The notes below the pieces were generated by a model that worked only from the letters and a program-made list of their open reading frames with translations, was not told the origin of the DNA and made no database searches. From the IMG/VR virus record IMGVR_UViG_3300025122_003952, positions 1 to 53,180 of that record: a DNA stretch of 53,180 bases; one strand, written 5' to 3'. This DNA is from a virus. Positions 121 to 20,893 of the stretch are shown piece by piece (position 1 is the stretch's first letter; every line of letters begins with the position of its first letter). The translations under genes were made by a program, and so were the position numbers.

Positions 121-2822
121 AGTATATCGATAAAATACTGAACGAATTAAGTTTTAGGGTTAGTGATGGTATGCCTGATTTCACCAATGAACAACACTTA
201 ATTAAGTTGTATGATATTTTGAATGACCTTAATTGGGATGAAGAAGTTATAAATGAATTGTTATATAATTTGTCGGAAGATGAAGATAAAGTTCCTAATC
301 CAAATCCAAAAACAAAAGAAAGATATCCAATGGTAACACCAGCCACGGCCGCTAAATATTTGGGTAAACAACAAGATGGTGCAGAAGAGGATGGAATTAC
401 TACTACTAAAAAGAAAAAAACGACTAAAAAGAAAAAGAAAAAGAAAACTGAACCGGATAGTAAGAGAACTGGTGCAGAAAGAAAAGATAAAATTGATAAA
501 GATAAAGCAATAATAAATGCTATAAAAGACCCAGTTAAAAGATTTCAAGAAATGAAAAAATTAACTAACCATAGAAGAAAAGAGATTTATGAAGGAAAAG
601 ATTTACCTGCAGGGAAGGCAGGTTCAACCACAGGTGAGATGGGTGGTGGAATTGCAGCAGAGGATATTGGTGATCCCGATGATCCTAATATTTCAGAAGA
701 AGAGTGGATTGAACAAGAATTAAAGGCGATAAATGACGCCGAGGGGGAAGAAACGTTAAAAGATAAATTATGTGAGGATAAAAGTCCTAAAGATTGTGAA
801 GCTGCAATTAAAGAATGGTTAGGAGTTGCTTATAGAACTGGATTAAATGAACTTAATGCATTAAAAACAAATCCTAAATATAACGCGGAGTGGCCACAAC
901 CAGAACCATATCCATCAGGCCATATAATGGATTTCCATGGCAAAGCTATGGTTAAAAATGAGTTAGAAAAAAAGAGTGAAGAATCAAATGAAAAATATCA
1001 AGCCTGTATAAAAACTCCTGAAGGTGAGAGGGAAGAAAACGGGTTTGCTGGAACTCCTTATGATTGTAGTATAGAGAAAAGTGTAGTAGAACATTATGAT
1101 AAACAATTAAGGCGTGTAGGAGTACCACCTGGAAATCCAGATGAATTAGAGGAATCCGATACAGGTATTTTATATCTTATGAAGAATGGTGAACTTGGTT
1201 TTAAACATACATCAAATAAGAAAAGTCTGGGAGATACACATAATAATAAAACTATATCATCTAAAATTAAATCAATGACTGAAGCTGCCCAAAGACAAAA
1301 AGATAGGAAACCGCCGATATTTGACTCGACTGATATAGACGAAATAACAGGGGTTGTAAGTAAAGAAATGGATGAGTCAATTGCAATTGTAGAAATAGCA
1401 GATAGACAGGCCCAAGCTGATGCTGGTAAAGTAGATGAAAGTGCATTAGTTTCTGGAGCAGGTAGTTTAATGAAAAAATTACCTGGCCAGGCTAGCACTA
1501 AAGGTACTAATTATGCGGAGAAGGTAAGAAAAGCTAAAGATGGAACTGCTTCTGTTAGAAAAGAACTAAAAAGACTGAAGATAGATGTAAAAACAGCTTC
1601 AGATGCGGAGATATTACAAGCTACGTTAAATGTGTTAAAAAATGGAAATTTCCCATCTAAAAAAGCTGAGAAAGAAGTAATAGCAAAAAGAGAAGAACTA
1701 AAGAAGAAAATTGCTGAATTAGAGGAAAAAGAGGAACTTACTCCAGAAGAAGAAGCTCAGTTGGGAGAAGCTAAAGAAGCTTTAGAAGCACCGATACAAT
1801 CTGGAAACGATAGTAGTGGTAATCCATTGTATTATAAAGCAGTTATTATTGAAGGAAAAGAAGAAATTAGACAATGTGATTCTGAAGGAAATCCAGCTTC
1901 TCCTGTTTTTGTAGGGAAAATGGTATATAAAATATCACAATTAATAAAAAAGACGAGAACAAAAGCCGCAAAAGTTGATCCACCACTTACAGAAGATTCA
2001 ACTGATAAAGAATTAGAAGAATTTGGAAAATTTTATGATCCAAACCTTACTGCAGACGAAGTAAGATGGATGTTATTTTCAGAAGAAGCTGATGCATTAG
2101 AAAATACAAATGATGATAGAAAATCTGGTATGGATAGAGCACACGCAAAAGTAGTAAAGGCATGTAATGATGAAGACCAAAAATGGTTTGCAAAAAATCC
2201 AGATAAAGCAAAAGAAATGGGATGGAGACAGAGAGAAGATGGAACATGGGAATCAGATCCCGATAAACCTACAAAAAATGGGCCAGCAACACAACAATAT
2301 GTAGATTCTTATATGGAAGATATGCATTGGAATAGATATATTGATGGAGACCATGATGGTGTTGGAGATATGAGTATAAATGGTCAAAATGTAGATCCAG
2401 CAGATTTTAGAACTTGTTTATCAAAATTATCTGGACATCTCAAAAAAGAAGAGGATGAAACAGATGAGGATTATGCTGCAAGATGTGAGGAACATTATAA
2501 AGACCCTGCTAATAGAGAAGCATTTAAACAACATTTAAGAGAACAAACAAGAATTTCAGCAGAGGTAGAAACAGATGGAGAATCTGACGATACTGGTAGA
2601 GTAACAAAAGAAAGTAAAGAAGCACATATTTCATTTGATACTGAAGTACCTGCAAAATTAAGAGGTAGAGAAACTGGGAGAATGAGAAAAGTTAGTGTAG
2701 GTGAAGAAACATATAGAAGTAAAGGTGTTGGTGTTAATAGTGTTTTAGGTGGTCTTGGTGTAGATATGCAAACTTGTTTACAGGGTGAGATGAATAGAAA
2801 AAATGTAGGAGAGGATTTTTAA
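117..2822 (+). CDS. Large hydrophilic protein, possible internal (ejected) head protein
   Basis: 901 residues if started at ATG 117, which has AGGAAGG five bases upstream and overlaps the previous stop; an upstream in-frame ATG at 69 is less likely. The protein is very rich in Lys and Glu with long predicted coiled stretches, a poly-Lys tract near residues 105-125, and a calcium-loop-like DGDHDGVGD near residue 760. The first ten residues, MKYIDKILNE, match the layout of T4 capsid-targeting peptides, which are ten residues long and are cut by the head protease after L/I-x-E. I infer a protein packed inside the head, but no enzymatic domain is recognised. A short inverted repeat at 605-623 encodes LPAGKAG in frame. 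The following gene starts in the stop codon (TAATG). Confidence 0.55.
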   Translation: MKYIDKILNELSFRVSDGMPDFTNEQHLIKLYDILNDLNWDEEVINELLYNLSEDEDKVPNPNPKTKERYPMVTPATAAKYLGKQQDGAEEDGITTTKKKKTTKKKKKKKTEPDSKRTGAERKDKIDKDKAIINAIKDPVKRFQEMKKLTNHRRKEIYEGKDLPAGKAGSTTGEMGGGIAAEDIGDPDDPNISEEEWIEQELKAINDAEGEETLKDKLCEDKSPKDCEAAIKEWLGVAYRTGLNELNALKTNPKYNAEWPQPEPYPSGHIMDFHGKAMVKNELEKKSEESNEKYQACIKTPEGEREENGFAGTPYDCSIEKSVVEHYDKQLRRVGVPPGNPDELEESDTGILYLMKNGELGFKHTSNKKSLGDTHNNKTISSKIKSMTEAAQRQKDRKPPIFDSTDIDEITGVVSKEMDESIAIVEIADRQAQADAGKVDESALVSGAGSLMKKLPGQASTKGTNYAEKVRKAKDGTASVRKELKRLKIDVKTASDAEILQATLNVLKNGNFPSKKAEKEVIAKREELKKKIAELEEKEELTPEEEAQLGEAKEALEAPIQSGNDSSGNPLYYKAVIIEGKEEIRQCDSEGNPASPVFVGKMVYKISQLIKKTRTKAAKVDPPLTEDSTDKELEEFGKFYDPNLTADEVRWMLFSEEADALENTNDDRKSGMDRAHAKVVKACNDEDQKWFAKNPDKAKEMGWRQREDGTWESDPDKPTKNGPATQQYVDSYMEDMHWNRYIDGDHDGVGDMSINGQNVDPADFRTCLSKLSGHLKKEEDETDEDYAARCEEHYKDPANREAFKQHLREQTRISAEVETDGESDDTGRVTKESKEAHISFDTEVPAKLRGRETGRMRKVSVGEETYRSKGVGVNSVLGGLGVDMQTCLQGEMNRKNVGEDF
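605..623. repeat. Inverted repeat inside a coding region (ACCTGC-7-GCAGGT)
   Basis: ACCTGC at 605-610 pairs with GCAGGT at 618-623 around AGGGAAG. It contains the palindrome CCTGCAGG and is clearly GC-richer than its surroundings. It is read in frame as LPAGKAG, in a low-complexity linker of the large protein. It may be a small inserted palindromic element tolerated because it keeps the frame. Confidence 0.5.
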
Positions 2823-3724
2823 TGATTAAACTAAAAGATTTATTAATGGAAGATTGGATTGATGATAAGTGGTATCCTGCCCATACCAAATCAGCATTAA
2901 AATGGGCTCTTATGCGTAGGACTATTCCTATCTATCCAAAGACAATGGAAAAAATAATTGGTAAAATACCAATAACTTCTTTTCATGTAACAACTCTTGA
3001 CCATTTAGATAATGTAACAAGATTACTTGGTACTAAAAAATCTATGTCAACATTCACTCGAATGGGTAAAGACTCTCAGTTAGCTAAAGGAAAGGGTATT
3101 CAGACTGAAGGTGGAGTTGTATTTTGGTTAGAAGGAACTTTATTAGCAAGAAAATATATTGATATGCAAAGTGAACCCGATAAAACAGGTCGTAGATGGA
3201 TATCTTCACTAATAGTTTTCGGTAGGGAAAAACAGCTGGTGCCATTTAACGCCGCAAAAAGAAAGAAGATACCTGACCGTGATGAATGGCAAGATTATGA
3301 GTGGGAAGTAAAAGATAAACTGATGAAAAAATATGGTGGTGGTGCAGATAATATCAAAGAATATGAAGCGGAAGTTAAAAAAGTATTAAATAAAAGGGCA
3401 AATGAAATAATTACTGCCTATATTACTTTGTCAAATAATTTGTTGAAAAAACATAAAAAATTAGTAAAGAAAAATCTTTCAACACCATCCAGAAAAGGTT
3501 CTTCTTGGTGGAATGAAATTTTGATATATAATGCAAAGATTAAAGAAATATTTGTAATGAGTAGAGCATCTAAAAAAGATTTGGAGTGGGGGGATAGCAA
3601 ACAAAAAGCCAGTCTTGAAAAACTTATTTCGACTGCAACAGGTGATAACCCAATCACTATTGGAACTCCAGCAAAATATCGTAAGTGGTATACGGATAGA
3701 AAAGGAAAGCTTGATGTTTATTAA
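2822..3724 (+). CDS. Putative head-packaged protein, possible ADP-ribosyltransferase fold
   Basis: 300 residues, beginning in the stop of the previous gene (TAATG). The N-terminus MIKLKDLLME again fits a ten-residue capsid-targeting peptide ending in L-x-E, as in T4 Alt and the IP proteins. Residues about 50-110 have the order FHVT, then STFTR, then GVVFWLEG, which resembles the strand pattern of ADP-ribosyltransferases (H or R in the first strand, an STS/T-type motif, later an acidic residue). T4 Alt is such an enzyme and is injected to modify host RNA polymerase, so an Alt-like role is an attractive inference, not a demonstrated one. The C-terminal half is Lys-rich with no recognised motif. 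Next to the other putative internal protein. Confidence 0.5.
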   Translation: MIKLKDLLMEDWIDDKWYPAHTKSALKWALMRRTIPIYPKTMEKIIGKIPITSFHVTTLDHLDNVTRLLGTKKSMSTFTRMGKDSQLAKGKGIQTEGGVVFWLEGTLLARKYIDMQSEPDKTGRRWISSLIVFGREKQLVPFNAAKRKKIPDRDEWQDYEWEVKDKLMKKYGGGADNIKEYEAEVKKVLNKRANEIITAYITLSNNLLKKHKKLVKKNLSTPSRKGSSWWNEILIYNAKIKEIFVMSRASKKDLEWGDSKQKASLEKLISTATGDNPITIGTPAKYRKWYTDRKGKLDVY

Positions 3725-3773
3725 GGAGTGGAATAAATTATTATGAGAACTCAATTTATGGTTGGAGAATATT

Positions 3774-4199
3774 ATGACTAAAACACAATTGTTGTGTACT
3801 TTCACCCGTAGAAACAGACTACACGACACAGTTGATGTAATTATTGAGTGTAATGAAATAGTATTTAGCAAAATTTATGTGTTTCAAAATGAAAAAGATT
3901 ATCATCAGTTAATTTGCACATACAATATAGAGTATTCAGATGATTTCATGGAAAATGTTAAAGATACAATTTCTCTACATAGGAAGAAACAGACAAATAC
4001 TCTTTATACAATAAATGCACTTAATGAAGTTATCAGATCACTAAACGAAGGTATTCTTGACAAGACATTTTCAGTACCCTGGGAAGAATATAAAAATTCA
4101 TTACTTCTCACAAATGAAGATGGATTAAATATAATACCGACAAGAATTTATTCAATAATAGATGTTAATACGTGGGATAGAAATTTAGAGGGAAATTAA
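3774..4199 (+). CDS. Conserved-looking phage protein of unknown function
   Basis: 141 residues from ATG 3774, chosen because GGAG at 3764-3767 lies six bases upstream; a TTG at 3762 would add four residues. No known domain recognised. The protein is mixed alpha/beta in appearance, soluble, with no signal peptide or membrane helix. A 12-codon frame (3743-3781, MRTQFMVGEYYD) ends across the start codon and could be a leader peptide or chance. It separates the putative head proteins from the two small membrane proteins. Confidence 0.6.
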   Translation: MTKTQLLCTFTRRNRLHDTVDVIIECNEIVFSKIYVFQNEKDYHQLICTYNIEYSDDFMENVKDTISLHRKKQTNTLYTINALNEVIRSLNEGILDKTFSVPWEEYKNSLLLTNEDGLNIIPTRIYSIIDVNTWDRNLEGN

Positions 4200-4201
4200 T
4201 A

Positions 4202-4453
4202 GTGGAAACTTTAGCTAAGTTGGTTGCTTTAATTTTGGGTTTGATGGGATTGAGTTCTAAAGCAACATCAATAAAAAAATCCAAAGTTAAGAAAATAGAT
4301 GTTAAGAAAGAAGAACTTGAGAAACAAGTTAAAAAGGTTGATAAGGAACTGAAACGGGTTAAGAAAGCACAAGCTAAAGCTAAGAACCCTATTAAGAGAA
4401 AGAAGATAAAAGACGCTGCTAAGTTTTTGAAGGATTTTGCGAAGAAGAAATGA
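4202..4453 (+). CDS. Small Lys-rich coiled-coil protein with N-terminal hydrophobic segment
   Basis: 83 residues from GTG 4202, with GAGGGA eight bases upstream. Residues about 5-18 are hydrophobic (LVALILGLMGL) and could anchor the protein in the inner membrane; the rest is a strongly basic coiled coil. It overlaps the next gene by four bases (ATGA). The topology resembles an inner-membrane spanin subunit, and the partner next door has a signal peptide and coiled coil, but there is no family match I can name. A small DNA- or RNA-binding protein is an alternative because of the high Lys content. Confidence 0.5.
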   Translation: METLAKLVALILGLMGLSSKATSIKKSKVKKIDVKKEELEKQVKKVDKELKRVKKAQAKAKNPIKRKKIKDAAKFLKDFAKKK

Positions 4454-4834: not shown

Positions 4835-5343
4835 TATAGTAATAGACAACAGTTTTTTGACATTTGAAATTGGCAAAGCAGAAAGGCCGTACACCTTTCT
4901 GTGGGGTTGACTGAACAACAGGTTTTGATAAAGGCTTGTAATGTATCCCAATCCTCTATGGTAGAGAATCAGCACCTAAATGTTGGTGTTTTTAGGATGA
5001 CAGTCCGTGCGGGAGTTTGAGTCAACACTACTTGAGAAAGTAAACCAACTTTTTCGCTTCATTGGGAGTACCCGAAAGGAAATCTCCCTGAGAACTGGCT
5101 GAATAAATCTTCTTTGAGGATTAAAGCAATCGGTTAGAAATTGTATTCGCCTCAACGATGTTTAATAGCATTGAGAGAGAATCGAAGTAACTTTCGGAAA
5201 CGAGATATGAAGTAATCTATCAAAGTGGCTCAATGTGAAATGGTATTTTCACACCCCCAAAAATTTCAAAATTTTAAAGTAGTTCGTTATTTTCAGTCTC
5301 CACCATACCACCAGACGTGAAAACGATGAGCTACTTTTTTTTT
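4832..5343 (+). ncRNA. Large structured non-coding RNA candidate, class unknown
   Basis: About 510 bases with no plausible gene, bounded by a promoter-like box and a strong terminator. Visible helices: GTCTAT/ATAGAC (4832-4847); CAGAAAGG/CCTTTCTG (4879-4901); a long-range helix GTTGACT (4906-4912) with AGTCAAC (5020-5026) that encloses CTCTA/TAGAG (4954-4966) and CCTAAA/TTTAGG (4975-4996); GAGAAAGT/ACTTTTTC near 5034-5055; GGGAG/CTCCC (5064-5088) capped by CC-GAAA-GG, a GNRA tetraloop; CTCAA/TTGAG (5151-5175); TGTGAAA/TTTCACA (5234-5253). A multibranched domain, a GNRA loop and a dedicated terminator argue for a folded, independently transcribed RNA. I see no tmRNA ends, RNase P core or group I intron core. 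It may belong to the large ornate phage RNAs (GOLLD/ROOL type), but I cannot match it by eye. Confidence 0.65.
5276..5343 (+). terminator. Strong intrinsic terminator of the structured RNA
   Basis: A long stem: AAAGTAG (5276-5282) with CTACTTT (5331-5337), then TCG/CGA, TTTTCA/TGAAAA and GTCT/AGAC (5296-5299 with 5313-5316) around a C-rich loop, with a three-base bulge. It runs directly into nine T residues (5335-5343). This is a textbook Rho-independent terminator and separates the RNA from the gp32-like gene. Confidence 0.85.
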
Positions 5344-9956: not shown

Positions 9957-11924
9957 ATGGAAAAATTCAAGTTATCAGATAATTTCATAGATAAATACAA
10001 GCGAAAAAGACCCCCATTTGGATTTAACGGACTCGGAGAATTAGTTTATATGAGAACTTATTCTCGCATCAAGGAAGATGGAAAAAACGAGCAATGGTGG
10101 GAAACTGTTCAAAGGGTTGTAGAGGGCACTTACTCAATGCAAATGAATTGGATTGATTCTCATCAACTTGGTTGGAATCCTTGGCAAGCACAGCGGTCAG
10201 CTCAAGAAATGTATGATAAGATATTCAATATGAAGTTTTTACCACCCGGCCGAGGTCTTTGGGCAATGGGAACTCCACTTACAGAAGAAAAAGGTCTTTA
10301 TGCAGCACTGAACAATTGTGCATTTGTATCCACATCTACTATTAAAGACGATTATGCAAAACCATTTTGTTTTTTGATGGACGCATCAATGTTGGGGGTA
10401 GGAGTTGGGTTTGATACAAAAGGTGCAAATCAAATCCTAATTAAAGGCCCCAATAAAAATAGAAATTCAGAATTATATGTAATTCCAGACACTCGGGAGG
10501 GTTGGATAGAATCTTTAAGGTTATTGTTAGAGAGTTATTTTCATGGAACATCACCTATAAAGTTTAATTATAATAAAATAAGAAAAGAGGGAGAACCAAT
10601 TAAAGGTTTTGGTGGTCTTTCAAGTGGCCACAAACCATTAGAAGAGTCACACACAGGTATAAGAAAGGTTCTTGATGAAAACGTTGGATCTCCAATTAGT
10701 TCTACGGTTATTGTTGATATTATGAATCTTGTAGGTAAATGTGTAGTTGCGGGCAATGTTCGTAGAACAGCAGAGATTGTATTTGGTGATCCAAGTGATG
10801 AAGAGTATCTAAATCTCAAAAACTATAAAAAGAATCCACATAGAGAACAATATGGTTGGACTTCTAATAATTCAGTATTTGCAGAACTTGGAATGGATTA
10901 TACAGAGTCTTGTAAAAGAATTACAGACAACGGTGAACCTGGGTTTGCATGGTTAGAAAATATGAGAAGTTATGGTAGAATGTGTGATGAACCAAATGGT
11001 TATGATACACGAGCAGCAGGTGGCAATCCGTGTTTAGAACAGACATTAGAGTCATATGAGTTATGTTGTCTTGTAGAAACATTTCCGTTTCGTCATGAAA
11101 ATTTGGAAGAGTTTAAAAGAACACTTAAATATGCCTATTTGTATGCTAAGACAGTAACACTCGGAAAGACTCATTGGCCAGAAACTAATCGTGTTATGTT
11201 AAGAAATCGTAGAATTGGTTGTAGTGTTAGTGGTATTGCACAATTTATAACTTACAAAGGAATAGATGAACTGAAAACGTGGTTAATGGATGGATATAAT
11301 GTAATTCAAGATTGGGACAAGGTTTATAGTGAGTGGTTCGCAACCCCCCGTTCTATTAAGACTACTTCCGTAAAACCAAGTGGTACTGTTTCACTATTAG
11401 CAGGTGCTACTCCAGGACTACATTATCCAGAAAGTAGATTATATATTAGACGAATAAGATTATCAAAATACAGTCCTTTACTTAAACCACTTGAGGCCTC
11501 TGGATATAAGATAGAACCAGCATTTGGTTCAGAGGATACTACGGTAGTGGTGGAAGTTCCAGTCGATGTTGGTAAAGGAATAAGAACTTCTAAGGAATTA
11601 TCAGTATGGGAACAATTTAGTTTGGCAGCTTTTATGCAAAAGTATTGGGCAGACAATCAAGTTAGTTGTACTGTTACTTTTGATCCAGAAACAGAGAAAA
11701 GAGACTTGTCTCATGTTTTGGATATTTATCAGTATCAATTAAAGGGGATTTCTCTATTACCGAGAAGGAATGGAGGGGCTTATGCACAAATGCCATATGA
11801 AGAAGTGGACAAGAAAAAATATGACACGATGATGTCAAAACTTAAATATTTATCTTTTAGACAGATTAAGGGAAGTGAGGCAGTGGTTGAAAAATTTTGT
11901 AATAATGATGTATGTGAAATTTAG
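9957..11924 (+). CDS. nrdJ: Adenosylcobalamin-dependent (class II) ribonucleotide reductase, monomeric type
   Basis: 655 residues. It converts ribonucleotides (triphosphates in the Lactobacillus-type enzyme) to deoxyribonucleotides for phage DNA synthesis, using coenzyme B12 to make the active thiyl radical. Key residues are all visible and correctly spaced: Cys121 in NNCAFVST, the radical Cys359 and Glu361 in GNPCLEQ, Cys370 (the redox partner eleven residues on), and the C-terminal pair Cys648/Cys653 in FCNNDVCEI, matching the C-x4-C tail of the Lactobacillus leichmannii enzyme. It therefore appears intact. It depends on host cobalamin; no B12 synthesis gene is in the window, but an outer-membrane TonB-dependent receptor gene is immediately downstream. 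Confidence 0.9.
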   Translation: MEKFKLSDNFIDKYKRKRPPFGFNGLGELVYMRTYSRIKEDGKNEQWWETVQRVVEGTYSMQMNWIDSHQLGWNPWQAQRSAQEMYDKIFNMKFLPPGRGLWAMGTPLTEEKGLYAALNNCAFVSTSTIKDDYAKPFCFLMDASMLGVGVGFDTKGANQILIKGPNKNRNSELYVIPDTREGWIESLRLLLESYFHGTSPIKFNYNKIRKEGEPIKGFGGLSSGHKPLEESHTGIRKVLDENVGSPISSTVIVDIMNLVGKCVVAGNVRRTAEIVFGDPSDEEYLNLKNYKKNPHREQYGWTSNNSVFAELGMDYTESCKRITDNGEPGFAWLENMRSYGRMCDEPNGYDTRAAGGNPCLEQTLESYELCCLVETFPFRHENLEEFKRTLKYAYLYAKTVTLGKTHWPETNRVMLRNRRIGCSVSGIAQFITYKGIDELKTWLMDGYNVIQDWDKVYSEWFATPRSIKTTSVKPSGTVSLLAGATPGLHYPESRLYIRRIRLSKYSPLLKPLEASGYKIEPAFGSEDTTVVVEVPVDVGKGIRTSKELSVWEQFSLAAFMQKYWADNQVSCTVTFDPETEKRDLSHVLDIYQYQLKGISLLPRRNGGAYAQMPYEEVDKKKYDTMMSKLKYLSFRQIKGSEAVVEKFCNNDVCEI

Positions 11925-11939
11925 AAATATCGTGGGAAA

Positions 11940-11975
11940 AACAGGCAGTTGACGCACCTGTTGAAAAATGCGTCA
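11940..11975 (+). promoter_or_regulatory. H-type RNA pseudoknot in the leader of the TonB-dependent receptor
   Basis: Stem 1 is AACAGG (11940-11945) with CCTGTT (11957-11962). Stem 2 is TGACGCA (11950-11956) with TGCGTCA (11969-11975). Loop 1 is CAGT, there is no spacer between stems, and loop 3 is GAAAAA. All 13 pairs are perfect Watson-Crick, and loop lengths suit coaxial stacking with an A-rich third strand, as in preQ1-type riboswitches and the T-even gene 32 pseudoknot. The Shine-Dalgarno AAGGAG (11992-11997) starts 17 bases downstream. A competing hairpin TTGAAA/TTTCAA (11961-11981) could switch with it. No T-run follows, so it is not a terminator. Confidence 0.6.
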
Positions 11976-12003
11976 TTTCAATAAAACAATGAAGGAGACG
12001 ATT

Positions 12004-14796
12004 ATGAAGAATCGTAACTTAATTTCTACATTGGCGGTGTTTTTTATGCCGATTGTTCTTTGGGGACAATCAGTTGCGGGAACAGTTACCGATGCAGAAA
12101 CGAGTAAACCCCTAGTTGGAGCTAATGTTGTAGTAGAAGGAACTGATTTGGGTGCCGCTGCAGACGCAGATGGTGCTTATTCTATCAAGGTAGATGCAGG
12201 TTCTTATACACTTACAGCTTCTTCAATTGGATATGCATCTCTTTCAGTAGAGGTTGATGTAGCGGAGGGGAAAGCGGTAAGTGCCGTAGACTTCTCCCTT
12301 TCAGTATCTGCATTAGAGATGTCTGCACTTGAGGTTTTGGCTTCGAGGGCAGATGAAAAAACACCTGTTGCTTATACTACGGTAGGAAAGGAAGAGATTG
12401 AATTTCGTCTTGGTTCACAAGACTTACCAATGTCTCTTAATCTTACTCCGAGTGTATATGCAACTCAACAGGGTGGTGGAGCAGGAGATGCACGTATCAA
12501 TGTTCGTGGGTTTAACCAACGGAATATTGCGGTAATGATTAACGGAGTTCCACAGAATGATATGGAAAATGGTTGGGTCTATTGGTCTAACTGGGATGGT
12601 GTAGCAGATGTTGCACAATCCATCCAGATGCAACGTGGATTAAGTGCTGTTAATTTAGCTGCACCTTCTATTGGTGGAACTATGAACATCATAACAGATC
12701 CTGCTGCTCTTGAAAAGGGTGGTAAATACAAACAGGAAGTTGGAGCAGGTGGATTCCTGAAATCAACTTTCAATTACAACACTGGGTTGGTAGCGGACAA
12801 GTTCGCTTTCAGTTTTACTGGTGTTAGAAAGACAGGTGATGGTGTCATAGACAAGACGTGGACAGATGCTTGGGCATATTACTTTGGTGCAAGTTACGCA
12901 CTGAATGAAAAGAACCGATTCGAATTATATGCAGTCGGTGCACCACAACGTCATGGTCAGAATCTATACAAACAGAATCTTGGCGCATACGATGCCGAGT
13001 TTGCTGAAAGTGTAGAAGGATATGACGCTACAGCTCTTGGTGAAGATGGTCAGTTCAAAGATGTTGGACGAACATTTAACCAGAACTGGTCACCAATTGA
13101 CCCGTCTTATGAGGGTAAACAATATTGGTATATGTATGGAGCCAATACAGTTGCTAGACACGATCCTAACTATCTAAATGAAAGAGAGAACTTCTTTCAC
13201 AAACCATTGGTTAACCTTAACCATTTCTTAACTATCAATGACAAAACAAGACTGAGTTCAGTCTTTTATTGGAGTGGTGGTTCAGGAGGTGGAACTGGTA
13301 CTTATGGTAGGATTCCTACCTTAGATGCTGATGGTAACTTAGGTGATGATGATTATAAGTTCTATTATGGTCGTGGTCCCTGGACTCGTGATTGGAATGC
13401 TCTTGTTGCTATGAACTCTGGCACAGATTCAGTAGTATATGTTGATAAGAGAGCTATTAGTAGAGAATCTGGTCAATCAGTAGGTATTTTGAGGAACAGT
13501 ATTAATCGTCAAAATACGATTGGTGTTATTTCTAAACTCAACTTAGATTTAAGTGATGCACTTAAATTACAGGCGGGTATAGATTGGCGTACTGCAGGTA
13601 TAGAACATGCACGTGAAGTTCGTGATTTACTTGGTGGTGATTTCTATGTGGATTTTGCTGATGATAATGCACCTGATGGTAAAAATGTTGAGTTAGGTGA
13701 TATTATTGCTTATCACAATGAAACTACAGTTGATTGGTTAGGTGGATTCTTACAAGGATCATATTCCTCAGGTCCACTTTCAGCATATGGTATGGGTGGA
13801 GTATCGAGCATTGCTTATACTTACCAAGACCATTTCACTGTTGCAGATGAAGTTATAGATCACGGTGATCCTATTATTACTACTCAGTTCAAAGGTGGAG
13901 CAATGTATGATGTTGCAGATAACGTTAGTGTTTTCGGTAACTTCGGTATTGTGGAAAAACCACCTATTATGGATAACGTGATTTACTTTGATGGAACAGT
14001 TGCTTCAGACCCGGCAAATGAACAGTTTGTCAGTTCAGAAGCTGGAGTGAATTACAGTGCTAGAAATCTGGCAGTTAAAGTCAGTGCATACAATACAGAT
14101 TGGAAAGATAGAAACCTTACCAAAGCTGTAACGAGTGGACAAGGTAGTTCAGGTGATACTGATGTTATCTTCTTATCTGGTATAAACCAGAATCATAAAG
14201 GTGTTGAAGTAGAGGCATCTACTAATGTTACCAATATGGTTCGTTTGGATGCCGCAGTAAGTCTTGGAAACTGGACTTTTGTTGGTGATGCAGATGGTAA
14301 TTATCAGGAAGATGAGTATAATGAACAAGGTCAGGTTGTTGGACAGACAACCACTCCATATTCTTACGCACTTGATGGTTTGTTTGTAGGTGATATGCCT
14401 CAGACAGCTTATGTTGTAGGTGTTACAGTAACACCAATAAAAGGACTTAGATTGCAATCTTCGTTCAATGTGTATGATGACAATTATGCAGATTGGAGTC
14501 CTAATGCAAGAGAGTATGATGGTTCAGACGCAGACGCTGATAGAGAACAAGTATGGCAGGCACCTGGATTTTCTAGGATGGACTTACATGCTACATACGA
14601 TTTGCCAAAAATCGGTGGGTTGAATCTACAGGCATTTGCTCATATGTTTAACGCATTAGATGCTGTATATGTGCAGGATGCAGTAGATCACAGTCAATAC
14701 AATAGTTACGGAGATAAAACTCACGCAGCTCATAACGCAGAAGTATTTCTTGGAATACCAAGATACTTTAATGCAGGTATTACTGTAAATTTCTAA
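12004..14796 (+). CDS. TonB-dependent outer-membrane receptor with carboxypeptidase-like regulatory domain
   Basis: 930 residues from ATG 12004, set by AAGGAG six bases upstream. Signal peptide at residues 1-22 (ends VLWGQ). Residues about 24-105 form a carboxypeptidase-D-like regulatory fold (VAGTVTDAETSKPLVGANV, then GAYSIKVDAGSYTLTASSIGY). The plug domain is about 115-235 (INVRGFNQRNIAVMINGVPQ, GLSAVNLAAPSIGGTMNI). The rest is a long beta-barrel ending in the C-terminal strand FNAGITVNF. Such receptors import large nutrients (siderophores, cobalamin, glycans) with TonB energy. The gene looks intact. It is visibly richer in G+C than its neighbours, interrupts the replication genes and has its own terminator, all signs of acquisition from a host. 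The substrate cannot be read from sequence. No SusD-like partner is present. Confidence 0.92.
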   Translation: MKNRNLISTLAVFFMPIVLWGQSVAGTVTDAETSKPLVGANVVVEGTDLGAAADADGAYSIKVDAGSYTLTASSIGYASLSVEVDVAEGKAVSAVDFSLSVSALEMSALEVLASRADEKTPVAYTTVGKEEIEFRLGSQDLPMSLNLTPSVYATQQGGGAGDARINVRGFNQRNIAVMINGVPQNDMENGWVYWSNWDGVADVAQSIQMQRGLSAVNLAAPSIGGTMNIITDPAALEKGGKYKQEVGAGGFLKSTFNYNTGLVADKFAFSFTGVRKTGDGVIDKTWTDAWAYYFGASYALNEKNRFELYAVGAPQRHGQNLYKQNLGAYDAEFAESVEGYDATALGEDGQFKDVGRTFNQNWSPIDPSYEGKQYWYMYGANTVARHDPNYLNERENFFHKPLVNLNHFLTINDKTRLSSVFYWSGGSGGGTGTYGRIPTLDADGNLGDDDYKFYYGRGPWTRDWNALVAMNSGTDSVVYVDKRAISRESGQSVGILRNSINRQNTIGVISKLNLDLSDALKLQAGIDWRTAGIEHAREVRDLLGGDFYVDFADDNAPDGKNVELGDIIAYHNETTVDWLGGFLQGSYSSGPLSAYGMGGVSSIAYTYQDHFTVADEVIDHGDPIITTQFKGGAMYDVADNVSVFGNFGIVEKPPIMDNVIYFDGTVASDPANEQFVSSEAGVNYSARNLAVKVSAYNTDWKDRNLTKAVTSGQGSSGDTDVIFLSGINQNHKGVEVEASTNVTNMVRLDAAVSLGNWTFVGDADGNYQEDEYNEQGQVVGQTTTPYSYALDGLFVGDMPQTAYVVGVTVTPIKGLRLQSSFNVYDDNYADWSPNAREYDGSDADADREQVWQAPGFSRMDLHATYDLPKIGGLNLQAFAHMFNALDAVYVQDAVDHSQYNSYGDKTHAAHNAEVFLGIPRYFNAGITVNF

Positions 14797-14807
14797 CAAG
14801 CAAAAAG

Positions 14808-14859
14808 AAATGAAATGTAACAGGGGAAGTAGAAATATTTCCCCTGTGTTTCATTTTTT
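14808..14859 (+). terminator. Intrinsic terminator after the TonB-dependent receptor
   Basis: Outer stem AAATGAAA (14808-14815) with TTTCATTT (14849-14856), inner stem ACAGGGGAA (14820-14828) with TTCCCCTGT (14839-14847), loop GTAGAAATAT, then TTTTTT (14854-14859). A strong Rho-independent terminator that isolates the receptor gene from the DNA polymerase gene. Confidence 0.9.
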
Positions 14860-14879
14860 AATCTATATTTAGGTTATAG

Positions 14880-17393
14880 ATGTATCAGAATATTTATTTC
14901 GATAATTTCAGAAAAAAAATACATATTTGGGATGATAAAAAAGGCTATCTTGTTTTGCCACACAAGAGGTATGCTTATGTGAAAAATTCAAATGGAAGAT
15001 ATGTTTCATTATATGGTGATAGATTAAATAAAGTTTATAAGTGGGATAATGACCAGCCAGGACTTCACGAGAGTGATGTTAATGCAGAGATAAGGGCGTT
15101 AGTAGATATATATACAGATTCGGATGAAGTTTCAGAAGGACATAGAGTTGCTTTTATAGATATAGAAGTTGAAGTTACAGAGGGGTTTCCAAATGTTAGT
15201 AAGGCGGAAAACAAGATTACTTCAATAGCATTTTATGATAAAATTATGGATGAATATAGTTGTTTTGTATTAGATCCAGACAATAAATTAAATATAGATG
15301 TTCAAGAAAATAGAATTATAGAAACATTTAAAACTGAAGAAGAATTATTATCTGGGTTTTTTAGAAAATACCTTGAAGTATCTCCTACAATTCTTTCTGG
15401 ATGGAATATAGATTTTTTTGATATTCCATATCTTTATAATAGAGCAATTCAAGTTCTTGGAAATGAATTTGCAAATTTATTATCTCCTATAAGAGAGGTA
15501 CATTGGAGTAAGTATAAAAATAGATATTTGATAGCAGGAGTATCGTGTCTTGATTATTTAAGTCTTTATAAGAAGTTTACATTTGGAGGAAAACCTTCCT
15601 ATAGATTAGATGATATAGGTGAGAACGAAGTTGGTGTAAAGAAAATTCCATATTCTGGAACATTAAATGATTTATATGAAAATGATTTAAAGAAGTTTGT
15701 TGAATATAATATTAATGATGTTGAAATTATTAAGAAGTTAGATGATAAGTTAGATTTTATAGAAATTTGTAGAGGTATATGTCATATGGGGCACTGTCCG
15801 TATGAAGACATTTATCATAGTAGTCGATATTTGGAAGGGGCGATTTTAACTTATCTTAAAAGATTGGATATCGTAGCACCAAATAAAGATCCAAAGGGCA
15901 GAGAAAAAATGGATACAGGGGTTAAGTTTGTTGGTGCTTATGTACAAGAGCCACAGAAAGGAAAACACGATTGGATTTATGATTTAGATGTTACTTCAAT
16001 GTATCCATCTACAATTATGAGTTTGAATATATCTCCAGAAACTAAAATTGGTAAAGTGAAAGGGTGGAATGCTAAACAATTTATTAGGGGTGAGAAAAAA
16101 ACATATACAGCACATACTAAAGATGGTAAATTAAAAGGAAGTACAAGTGAATCTAAATTAAAAAAATATTTAGATGACAATAAGATTTCAATTTCTACGA
16201 ATGGAATTCTTTACAGAACAGACAAGAGAGGATTGATACCAGCATTATTAGAAACTTGGTTTGATCAGAGAGTGGAATATCGAAAATTAATGAAAAAATT
16301 TGCAGAAAAAGAAGATAATGAAAAGTATTTATATTTTAATCGGAGACAACACTTACAAAAGATTTTATTAAATTCTATGTATGGAGTATTGGGATTGCCC
16401 GTTTTTAGGTTTTACGATTTAGATAATGCAGCTGCTACAACTGAAACCGGCCAATCTCTTATTAAATACAGTAAGGAAATTGTGAATTTCTATTACAATA
16501 AAGAACTTGGAACATCTAAGGACTATGTAATTTATATAGATACTGATAGTATTTTTGCTCCAGCATTACCATTAATAGAAAAAAAATATCCAACTGTCGG
16601 TATTAAAAGTGATGTTATGATTTCAGAGAAAATTTTAGATGTTGCAGAAAATGTTCAGGAGTTTATAAATGATTCTTACAATCATTTCGCCAAAAACTTT
16701 TGTAATTTGGACACACACAGATTTCAAATTAAACAAGAGGTCATAGCTAAGAGTGGATTGTTTGTTACTAAGAAACGATATGGGATGAGAATAATAAATG
16801 ATAATGGAGTTAAAGTAAATAAAATTCTTGTAAAGGGATTGGATACAGTTAGGAGTAATTTTCCACCCGCTCTTAGAAAATTATTATCTGATGTTTTAGA
16901 AGATATTTTGGCAGATGTACCGAAAGATAAAATAGATGATAGAATTATTAATTTTAAGAAAAGTATGAAATTAATGAATATAGATAAGATAGCAACTCCA
17001 ACTGGTGTAAAAGGACTTAGGAAGTATGCTAGAAAAGGAGAAGAAAACGGATCTATTCTCACAACCTTTAAGAAAGGAGCTCCAGTTCACGTCAAAGCAG
17101 CAGTCAGATATAATGATTTGTTAAAACATTACAAAAGAGATGATAAATATATGTTCATAAATAACGGAGATAAAATTCGGTGGTCATATATGAAGAATAA
17201 TGAACTTGGAATTGAAGTGGTTGCTTATAGGGGGCATGAAGATCCACCAGAAATTATAAAGTTCATCAAAGAAAATATAGATTATAATAAAATTTATAAA
17301 CAATCGTTAAAGAAAAAAATTGATATGTTCTATAAAAGTTTGAAATGGGGCGACCCAGTAGATAAACAGCAAACAATAGAAAGATTTTTTTGA
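14880..17393 (+). CDS. 43: Family B DNA polymerase, T4 gp43-like
   Basis: 837 residues (T4: 898). The replicative polymerase with 3'-5' proofreading. Exonuclease motifs: FIDIEVE (Asp94, Glu96), SGWNIDFFDIPYLYN near 180 and YNINDVEII near 280. Polymerase motifs: A, DLDVTSMYPS near 367-376; B, KILLNSMYGVLG near 495; C, IYIDTDSIF near 551. All catalytic acids are present. The C-terminal peptide (QQTIERFF) resembles the clamp-binding tail. There is no strong ribosome site: the ATG follows TATATTTAGGTTATAG, so initiation may rest on a separate promoter after the receptor terminator. Confidence 0.95.
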   Translation: MYQNIYFDNFRKKIHIWDDKKGYLVLPHKRYAYVKNSNGRYVSLYGDRLNKVYKWDNDQPGLHESDVNAEIRALVDIYTDSDEVSEGHRVAFIDIEVEVTEGFPNVSKAENKITSIAFYDKIMDEYSCFVLDPDNKLNIDVQENRIIETFKTEEELLSGFFRKYLEVSPTILSGWNIDFFDIPYLYNRAIQVLGNEFANLLSPIREVHWSKYKNRYLIAGVSCLDYLSLYKKFTFGGKPSYRLDDIGENEVGVKKIPYSGTLNDLYENDLKKFVEYNINDVEIIKKLDDKLDFIEICRGICHMGHCPYEDIYHSSRYLEGAILTYLKRLDIVAPNKDPKGREKMDTGVKFVGAYVQEPQKGKHDWIYDLDVTSMYPSTIMSLNISPETKIGKVKGWNAKQFIRGEKKTYTAHTKDGKLKGSTSESKLKKYLDDNKISISTNGILYRTDKRGLIPALLETWFDQRVEYRKLMKKFAEKEDNEKYLYFNRRQHLQKILLNSMYGVLGLPVFRFYDLDNAAATTETGQSLIKYSKEIVNFYYNKELGTSKDYVIYIDTDSIFAPALPLIEKKYPTVGIKSDVMISEKILDVAENVQEFINDSYNHFAKNFCNLDTHRFQIKQEVIAKSGLFVTKKRYGMRIINDNGVKVNKILVKGLDTVRSNFPPALRKLLSDVLEDILADVPKDKIDDRIINFKKSMKLMNIDKIATPTGVKGLRKYARKGEENGSILTTFKKGAPVHVKAAVRYNDLLKHYKRDDKYMFINNGDKIRWSYMKNNELGIEVVAYRGHEDPPEIIKFIKENIDYNKIYKQSLKKKIDMFYKSLKWGDPVDKQQTIERFF

Positions 17394-19381: not shown

Positions 19382-20300
19382 TAAATTATCCCATTATTTG
19401 TGGGTTGAAAAGTATCGACCTTCCACTTTAGATACTTATATTGGGAACGAGCATCTTAAGAGTAAGGTGTCTTTGTATCTTAAGAATGGTGACTTACCAC
19501 ATCTTTTGTTTTATGGAAAACCAGGTACAGGCAAAACCACTATTGCTAAAATACTTGTTAATCATATTGAATGTGATTCTATTTATATTAATGCGAGTGA
19601 TGAAAATAATGTAGATACAATCAGAAATAAAGTAAAGATGTTTGCGTCAACACTTGGGTTTAAAGAATTGAAGATTGTAATTCTTGATGAGTGTGATTAT
19701 ATAACTCCTAATGCACAAGCTGCACTAAGGAACTTAATGGAAACATTTAGTAGACACTGTAGGTTCATTTTAACTTGTAATTTTGTTGAGAGAATTATTG
19801 ATCCCATTCAGAGTAGGTGTCAGTTGTTTCAGACAACACCACCATCTAAACCAGATGTTGCGAAAAGATTGGTAGAAATTCTGGGAGAAGAAAGTGTAGG
19901 ATATGAACTTGAGGATTTGAAATTGGTGATTGATTCAGGTTATCCAGATATTCGTAGAGTAATTAATTCTGCTCAACGACAGGTAGTAGATGGAGTTGTT
20001 AAGATAGATAAAGAGAGTTTGTTAGAGAGGGATTATAAATTAAAAGTACTTGAAATATTAAAGACACAAGATAAGAAGAACGCTTTTAGAAATACAAGAC
20101 AATTGTTAGCAGACAATCAAGTTAAAGATTTTGCAGATTTATTTAGGTTGTTATATGATAAGGTAGATGAATATGGTAAGGGTCATGTAGCAGAATGTAT
20201 TTTAATAATTGCCAGGTATGAATTATCAGATGCACAAGTTGTGGATAAAGAGATTAATGCTATGGCTATGATTATAGAACTATTAGGAGCAATAAAATGA
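19374..20300 (+). CDS. 44: Clamp-loader large subunit, T4 gp44-like AAA+ ATPase
   Basis: 308 residues from ATG 19374; an upstream in-frame start inside the methyltransferase is not supported. It opens and loads the sliding clamp using ATP. Walker A GKPGTGKTT is near residues 46-54, Walker B VILDECDYI near 102-110, sensor ILTCNF near 136 and the arginine finger SRCQ near 150. The N-terminal LWVEKYRPSTLDTYIG is typical of RFC small subunits. The small subunit (gp62) is probably encoded at 21625-22125, separated by ClpP and zinc-ribbon genes. Confidence 0.92.
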   Translation: MTDKLSHYLWVEKYRPSTLDTYIGNEHLKSKVSLYLKNGDLPHLLFYGKPGTGKTTIAKILVNHIECDSIYINASDENNVDTIRNKVKMFASTLGFKELKIVILDECDYITPNAQAALRNLMETFSRHCRFILTCNFVERIIDPIQSRCQLFQTTPPSKPDVAKRLVEILGEESVGYELEDLKLVIDSGYPDIRRVINSAQRQVVDGVVKIDKESLLERDYKLKVLEILKTQDKKNAFRNTRQLLADNQVKDFADLFRLLYDKVDEYGKGHVAECILIIARYELSDAQVVDKEINAMAMIIELLGAIK

Positions 20301-20893
20301 AAGAATATTGGGGAGAAAAAAATCCGGCACCAAAGAAAAATGTAAAACCAGGTGAAGAAAAACATATTTCAGTTTATGAAAATAAAATATATTATTATTC
20401 TGGAGTGAATAGAGAAACGGTAGTTGAATTAAATCACAAACTTAGTGAATTAGAAGCAAAACATCTTACAGTATCTAATGTATTAGAAATTGATCCACCA
20501 CCAATTAGATTATTTATAAATTCAGGTGGAGGTTCAATCACTGCTGGTATTGCATCTATGGATACAATTTCAAGATGTAATGTTCCTGTATACACTTTTG
20601 TAGATGGATTTTGTGCAAGTGCAGCTACATTTCTTTCAGTAGTAGGCAAGAAAAGATTTATGAGTAAAAATTCATATATGTTAATTCATCAATTATCTTC
20701 ACAATTGTGGGGAAAGTATTCTGAAATAGAGGATGAGAAAAAGAATTTAGATTTGATGATGGAAACTATTAGAACTGTATATACAGAACATACTAAAGTT
20801 CCAACAGAAGAATTAGATGAAATATTGAAACATGATTTACTTTGGGATGCCAAAAAGTGTCTTGAATATGGATTAGTAGATGAAATTATATAG
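20297..20893 (+). CDS. clpP: ClpP-like serine protease
   Basis: 198 residues, overlapping gp44 by four bases. ClpP family peptidase: RLFINSGGGSITAGIA near 71-86, nucleophile Ser108 in GFCASAATF, His131 in YMLIHQLSS, and Asp near 180 in KHDLLWDAKKCLEYGLVDE. The triad looks complete. In cells ClpP forms a barrel fed by a Clp ATPase; no ATPase is in this window, so it would work with the host's or act alone. In phages, ClpP-like proteins also serve as head-maturation proteases, but its setting among replication genes argues for a role in protein turnover during infection. Confidence 0.87.
   Translation: MKEYWGEKNPAPKKNVKPGEEKHISVYENKIYYYSGVNRETVVELNHKLSELEAKHLTVSNVLEIDPPPIRLFINSGGGSITAGIASMDTISRCNVPVYTFVDGFCASAATFLSVVGKKRFMSKNSYMLIHQLSSQLWGKYSEIEDEKKNLDLMMETIRTVYTEHTKVPTEELDEILKHDLLWDAKKCLEYGLVDEII

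Follow-up and report, generated by a model that had tools for sequence, protein, structure and literature searches.

A complete TonB-dependent receptor is encoded between a class II ribonucleotide reductase (RNR) and a family B DNA polymerase (PolB) in a T4-type phage, and related receptors are common in the uncultivated phage group to which this virus belongs. On balance, the receptor probably is a working transporter that has been kept as an auxiliary uptake gene, with its translation under the control of a phage-specific RNA. Its carriers are widespread ocean viruses whose hosts probably are uncultured marine Marinimicrobia. Computation gives a complete receptor of host-nested origin, purifying selection that is strongest on the plug and the TonB-box region, a conserved and covarying pseudoknot, a cassette architecture and repeated loss; the expression, export, transport activity and substrate of the receptor, as well as what the pseudoknot would sense, we infer.

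The window analysed here is the whole of a 53,180-base virus record (IMG/VR IMGVR_UViG_3300025122_003952). Its replication genes identify it as a T4-type phage, with genes for gp32, UvsX, an exonuclease, DnaB and the clamp close to the receptor locus; the capsid gene gp23 lies outside the window and was seen on the receptor-bearing contig in three related records. A preliminary description had placed a full-length receptor between RNR and polymerase, and the open reading frame, domain matches, structure model and neighbours (Table 1) bear this out. It had also named misassembly at 11.93 or 14.86 kb as a danger. Two independent metagenomes (3300020331 and 3300035206) contain contigs that agree with window positions 11000-15500 at 100%, without gaps and across both junctions, additional contigs span one junction each, and the same arrangement is common to dozens of phages; the independent contigs make a chimera of phage and bacterial DNA so improbable that it is ruled out for practical purposes. 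Elsewhere the window carries a ClpP-type protease gene (20297-20893) and, at 25735-53073, surface-sugar genes encoding glycosyltransferases, a 4,6-dehydratase/epimerase, a nucleotide-sugar dehydrogenase and a DegT aminotransferase, together with genes for three cytidylyltransferases, an MptE-like protein, a sugar O-methyltransferase and an asparagine synthase-like protein.

Table 1. Features of the receptor locus in the window; dN/dS values are from 60 phage pairs.
Feature	Position	Strand	Evidence and remarks
RNR, class II (B12-dependent type), upstream neighbour	9957..11924	+	RNR_Alpha and RNR-II_ins_dom; phrog_367 E 3e-130
H-type pseudoknot core, 34 nt	11941..11974	+	phage leaders, covariation
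Pseudoknot S1	11941-11945/11957-11961	+	ACAGG/CCTGT
Pseudoknot L1	11946-11950	+	CAGTT
Pseudoknot S2	11951-11956/11969-11974	+	GACGCA/TGCGTC, six continuous pairs
Pseudoknot L3, A-rich	11962-11968	+	
Shine-Dalgarno AAGGAG of receptor	11992..11997	+	sequence
TonB-dependent receptor, 930 aa plus stop	12004..14796	+	ORF (ATG at 12004), domains, alignment, AlphaFold2 model, PDB comparison
Signal-like segment, residues 1-21	12004..12066	+	sequence; dN/dS 0.46, least constrained
Carboxypeptidase-regulatory-like N-terminal domain, residues 22-105	12067..12318	+	CarbopepD_reg_2 match, PF13715, E 2e-19; strands in model; dN/dS 0.36
Presumed TonB-box region, residues 106-122	12319..12369	+	by position only; dN/dS 0.12
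Plug domain, about residues 118-236	12355..12711	+	PF07715; dN/dS 0.07, lowest
Transmembrane beta-barrel, residues 237-930, aromatic-terminated last strand	12712..14793	+	model, PDB comparison; dN/dS 0.13 (with loops)
Intrinsic terminator, 12-bp stem then T-rich tail	14820..14857	+	hairpin 14820-14847
Family B DNA polymerase (PolB), downstream neighbour	14880..17393	+	PF00136 E 6e-37; phrog_262 E 1e-180

The protein begins with a signal-like N-terminus (MKNRNLISTLAVFFMPIVLWGQ) and ends in phenylalanine, a residue that also terminates 99% of the phage sequences aligned with it. The Plug domain is matched at residues 118-226 with an E-value of 5e-13 and 50.0 bits against a cut-off of 23.9, and the presumed TonB-box region is conserved in both phage and host sequences. 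In the AlphaFold2 model (mean pLDDT 77.7, pTM 0.74) an N-terminal beta-sandwich, a plug and a barrel can be recognized, and the PDB chains aligned to it are TonB-dependent transporters. Among solved structures BtuB ranks highest in VIA-align (Z 37.7, 536 aligned, rmsd 2.7; best non-BtuB Z 35.1); Foldseek places siderophore and PQQ receptors first. Sequence matches to relatives of known structure are confined to the N-terminal quarter and short C-terminal pieces, and from these no substrate could be read. The SusC/RagA subfamily model TIGR04056 reaches 59.1 bits against a cut-off of 368.25, over the N-terminal part only, so that membership is not indicated, and no SusD lipoprotein is encoded beside the receptor, the neighbours being RNR and PolB.

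A phage that carries such a receptor had been thought unusual. In this group it is a common gene and no oddity of a single phage: a protein search of IMG/VR found at least 317 stretches that encode relatives, of which 80, 64-100% identical, were kept. The phage records are metagenomic fragments, and contig counts are lower bounds. In 69 of the 80 the fetched locus also contains RNR, PolB or another replication gene known from the window, and the relatives, some 80 distinct sequences from uncultivated marine phages, sit mostly at the RNR/PolB site. All 23 phage records examined encode one Plug-domain protein each. Among 50,697 annotated phage records no counterpart of the family was found above about 32% identity; weak receptor matches occur there in very large phage genomes. 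A further 57 loci lie in bacterial or archaeal genome contigs, nearly all of them from Marinimicrobia MAGs, with L099 and L129 being phage contigs binned with other organisms. The family is present in at least 124 of 245 Marinimicrobia genomes (E up to 1e-100), and the 20 genomes examined for Plug proteins encode 8-30 each. Since the host orthologues adjoin genes that, from a reading of their sequences, are named dnaG, cvpA and yqeY, and no nutrient operon, the host neighbourhood is uninformative on the substrate.

The suspected host origin is upheld by a tree of 127 receptors, in which the phage copies form, with one exception, a single clade inside the Marinimicrobia receptors (SH-like 99); quick methods were used, so that the fine branching is unsure. 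The exception comes from L109, a Marinimicrobia contig of 4.3 kb on which a DegT gene is accompanied by tandem receptors (986-4265) and the pseudoknot is missing. The first receptor copy of L109 nests within the phage clade, and a phage clade that excludes L109 is rejected by a topology test (p-AU 5e-5). The DegT-like match had suggested a phage contig, a reading that we rejected because the open reading frames, DegT and tandem receptors, argue for a host contig. Transfer back from phage to host would be the simplest reading, with a second capture being possible. The receptor's own phylogeny, and that alone, points to Marinimicrobia (Fidelibacterota) as the phage host. Judged by its sequence, the phage RNR does not look Marinimicrobial, with a distant match in one of 120 Marinimicrobia genomes. 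In L055 (match from 3396), and perhaps L047, the RNR seems to be interrupted by a stretch with an intein-like end (HHFFVKN, then IVSHN).

The gene is, as had been noticed, GC-richer than the other long genes of the window (0.405 versus 0.28-0.37), but nothing marks it as foreign and recent. The excess is located at codon positions 1 and 2 and thus comes from amino-acid content, whereas GC at third positions (GC3), 0.254, falls within the 0.12-0.28 of the other window genes; on average GC3 is 0.234 in phage copies and 0.345 in host copies. The phage-like GC3 implies that the capture is old, and together with the tree and synteny it led us to reject a recent foreign acquisition. As far as these comparisons indicate, one large phage lineage has passed the receptor on by descent, at times losing it or moving it to other loci. 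Its description as a moron therefore holds in part: it is of host origin, has its own terminator and leader, and is an extra gene between RNR and PolB, which are adjacent in relatives, but it lacks a foreign base composition and was not taken up recently.

Comparison with related phages, which had been proposed as a check, revealed empty sites: in several branches the receptor is absent and RNR and PolB are separated by 59-174 nt. In a PolB tree the receptor-bearing phages make up most of a 67-row group, which adjoins 15 phages that have different genes at the RNR/PolB site. In L343, L378, L403 and their relatives, which have no receptor, the genes at this site look by sequence like those of a glutamine synthetase, a nucleotidyltransferase and a trypsin-type secreted protease. 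The loci L263 and L264 are 98-99% identical on both flanks; L263 has neither pseudoknot nor receptor and retains the receptor's last codons and the terminator. The aligned flanks overlap by 8 bases, as expected of a deletion between short repeats, and the locus appears to have undergone a recent deletion; no other Plug protein is encoded in the L263 record (95.9 kb). Empty sites and recent deletion mark the receptor gene as accessory. The cassette has also been found relocated: L021 and L024 share 2,945 bases at 95.8%, from about 90 bases before the start codon to about 25 past the stop, with no similarity outside this block in the fetched loci, and several further pairs are alike. As the identity is kept at other loci with unrelated flanks, pseudoknot, receptor and terminator act as a unit. 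The 12-bp hairpin and T-rich tail confirm the terminator that had been described, and in the relatives read the receptor is likewise followed by hairpins that resemble terminators; promoter-like sites before the gene are no more frequent than in shuffles and thus reveal no promoter of its own. No terminase was found on the second-locus contigs, which are fragments. Contigs with a relocated cassette also carry a QueE-like radical SAM gene (L051:11396-12151) and a tryptophan halogenase-like gene (L006:1410-2975).

A leader structure had been claimed as well, and it proved real, conserved and covarying, but it is a pseudoknot and not the minimum free energy fold; the latter (z -0.21) is no better than shuffles and was discarded, the folding program being unable to show pseudoknots. 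In 80 distinct phage leaders, anchored on the receptor start without selection for the motif, the pseudoknot is present in every one, with strict pairing in 76 and one G-U pair in four. Across 57 distinct cores 97.1% of the cells are paired and six of the eleven pairs change on both sides; double changes amount to 44 cells versus 9.5 in shuffles (0/500), and the pairing collapses when the partner is shifted by one, two or three columns. The last bases of loop 3 are AAAAA, and loop 1 almost always reads CAG and then two bases that vary. A protein-independent DNA pattern scan (at least 120 contigs), its pattern derived from the receptor leaders, had the receptor downstream in 126 of the 126 distinct complete cases listed; eight more matches lie so close to the contig edge that the gene breaks off in its first codons, and a single other match was spurious, produced by a loose script pattern. 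The pattern is absent from all 245 Marinimicrobia genomes, though the receptor family is present in at least 124 of them, and the host leaders lack the pseudoknot. Rfam gave no match to the leader (96 bases) at E up to 10, the rows for sraA and CRISPR-DR24 being dismissed as chance-level. Of 76 leaders (L004-L081), 59 contain a TTC(A/G)CATAC motif (TTTCACATAC) upstream of the pseudoknot, in most cases about 75-100 nt ahead of the receptor's start; with 19 other sites on both strands, the motif is rare in the rest of this 1.1 Mb of sequence, and at the window's own locus (L002, L003) only the reverse complement is found, in the RNR 3' end. Upstream of gp32, positions 5064-5257 of the window resemble the manA RNA, although the match (39.8 bits, E 1.4e-7) falls short of the gathering score of 55.2.

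In the window the pseudoknot ends 17 nt before the ribosome-binding site and no T-run is present, which makes translational control more likely than termination; from this arrangement, the pseudoknot would set the translation of the receptor. The conserved, covarying leader structure expected of a riboswitch is present, and it is conceivable, although we offer this tentatively, that the pseudoknot is a phage-specific riboswitch of a new class that senses the imported nutrient, by which the lytic phage would tune outer-membrane uptake to the supply of the cell. A protein-binding translational operator that senses no ligand is a plausible alternative, though by analogy and still short of probable. 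In the operator of T4 gene 32 a compact pseudoknot is joined to the ribosome-binding site by a few unpaired, A-rich bases; the present leader resembles it in position and architecture, and a gp32 gene is present in the phage. If gp32 were the binding protein, however, the operator would be expected before gene 32, and against this stands the occurrence of the motif before the receptor, with no convincing instance in the rest of the fetched loci, among them the leaders of gp32.

Selection on the receptor is purifying throughout. In 40 independent phage pairs the counting method gave a median dN/dS of 0.135 (range 0.07-0.18), and among the regions (Table 1) the plug and TonB-box region are the most constrained. 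No 30-codon window exceeds a dN/dS of 0.40 in the 60 pairs, and thus diversifying selection was not detected. Between 25 phage and 30 host sequences there is no fixed residue difference at any position, and at plug positions 151-180 all 30 consensus residues are identical; the features of transport have accordingly been kept. This pattern, as read from the sequences, fits active transport and not an arms race of the loops, and would be compatible with a surface role. We therefore envisage that an ancestor of these T4-type phages took the receptor, probably once, from a Marinimicrobia host. During infection the receptor would be made, exported and inserted into the host outer membrane, where the TonB-ExbB-ExbD system of the host would power it, so that import of a scarce nutrient that phage production requires might be raised or maintained; the pseudoknot upstream of the ribosome-binding site, as a ligand-sensing RNA or a protein-binding operator, would set translation. 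As several phages are without the cassette or have lost it cleanly, the benefit would be conditional, and with rapid lysis a newly made outer-membrane protein may bring little gain.

Whether the receptor feeds the cell or alters superinfection had been left undecided in the preliminary description; of these two proposals, uptake fits the selection pattern better. A role in surface remodelling or superinfection control, in which the receptor, with the sugar cluster, alters the cell surface and, for instance, replaces, competes with or masks the host receptor on which this phage or its rivals depend, gains some credit from the glycosyltransferase, nucleotide-sugar and cytidylyltransferase genes that fill about 27 kb of the same window, from the frequent use of TonB receptors by phages (PDB entries show, for example, FhuA with T5 pb5, which binds it, and with Llp, which blocks it), and from the loss and relocation of the cassette, which fit a conditional trait. 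Yet the plug and TonB-box region, needless for a decoy, are the most constrained, no window is under diversifying selection and no residue separates phage from host copies, and we therefore consider this role rather unlikely. The idea of a captured host gene that brings the phage no benefit is very improbable: clean losses do exist, but dN/dS is 0.07-0.18 in all 40 pairs, and 2.8 kb with a dedicated leader and terminator have been retained over a long divergence.

A special case of the uptake reading, in which the receptor is a cobalamin transporter that feeds the adjacent B12-dependent RNR, strikes us as doubtful. Class II RNR is the usual neighbour of the receptor, this RNR type is rare and distant among the Marinimicrobia genomes searched, and BtuB has the best VIA-align score. 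That score may, however, reflect the small, short-looped barrel of BtuB, and Foldseek ranks other receptors ahead; moreover, this RNR is shared by phages that have no receptor, and the receptor is found at loci other than that of the RNR as well. Cobalamin riboswitches are present in 16 of 20 Marinimicrobia genomes, but beside genes outside the receptor family, and ten host loci of the family yielded none; in these genomes and loci no cobalamin-riboswitch control of the family was seen.

If the auxiliary uptake reading is true, viruses of widespread uncultured bacteria act on the outer surface of the cell and on its import, and the combination of phage receptor and RNA leader suggests that they control uptake by the infected cell. 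The pseudoknot is a compact RNA element, absent from the host genomes searched and amenable to testing, and were it a riboswitch that reads the imported nutrient, the system would stand beyond the known phage uptake genes. The findings also bear on how TonB receptors, the entry points for many phages, move between viruses and bacteria. In phage sequences, proteins with this receptor fold have been annotated earlier, and genes for uptake are an established category there; the literature searched, with subscription journals and preprints mostly outside its coverage, described no host-derived receptor that is under selection throughout a phage lineage and has its own RNA element without a counterpart in Rfam.

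The closest known counterpart is the chromosomal receptor near dnaG in Marinimicrobia, which has the same domains and up to 77-78% identity over 930 amino acids; it differs in its leader without pseudoknot, in its GC3 (0.345 versus 0.234 in phages) and in its chromosomal housekeeping neighbourhood. The phosphate-binding protein PstS of cyanophages is a phage auxiliary uptake gene. Like the receptor, it is a host-derived component of nutrient uptake in T4-like marine phages, whereas the component described here is a TonB-dependent transporter of the outer membrane and is preceded by a structured RNA leader of its own. The class I preQ1 riboswitch and the T4 gene 32 element are compact H-type pseudoknots with an A-rich loop in a 5' leader. 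The present motif shares this architecture and differs in its six continuous S2 pairs, its unrelated downstream gene and the lack of an Rfam match. For the manA and wcaG RNAs of T4-like marine phages a role in modifying host metabolism has been proposed (PMC2864571). They likewise are phage-carried structured leaders of metabolic genes and candidate riboswitches; they are other RNAs than the 34-nt H-type pseudoknot without Rfam match described here. A SusC of an uncultured marine phage (UniProt A0A8D9FQQ5, BFVD), of which no description was found in the literature searched, is also a predicted TonB-dependent receptor in a marine phage sequence, but its 10% identity in the structural alignment indicates a different family. 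Finally, deep-sea Lentisphaerae phages encode ExbB, proposed to aid uptake (PMC11361711), and thus also possess a gene for a part of the TonB system; there, however, it is the energiser and not the receptor, and the phages are chronic.
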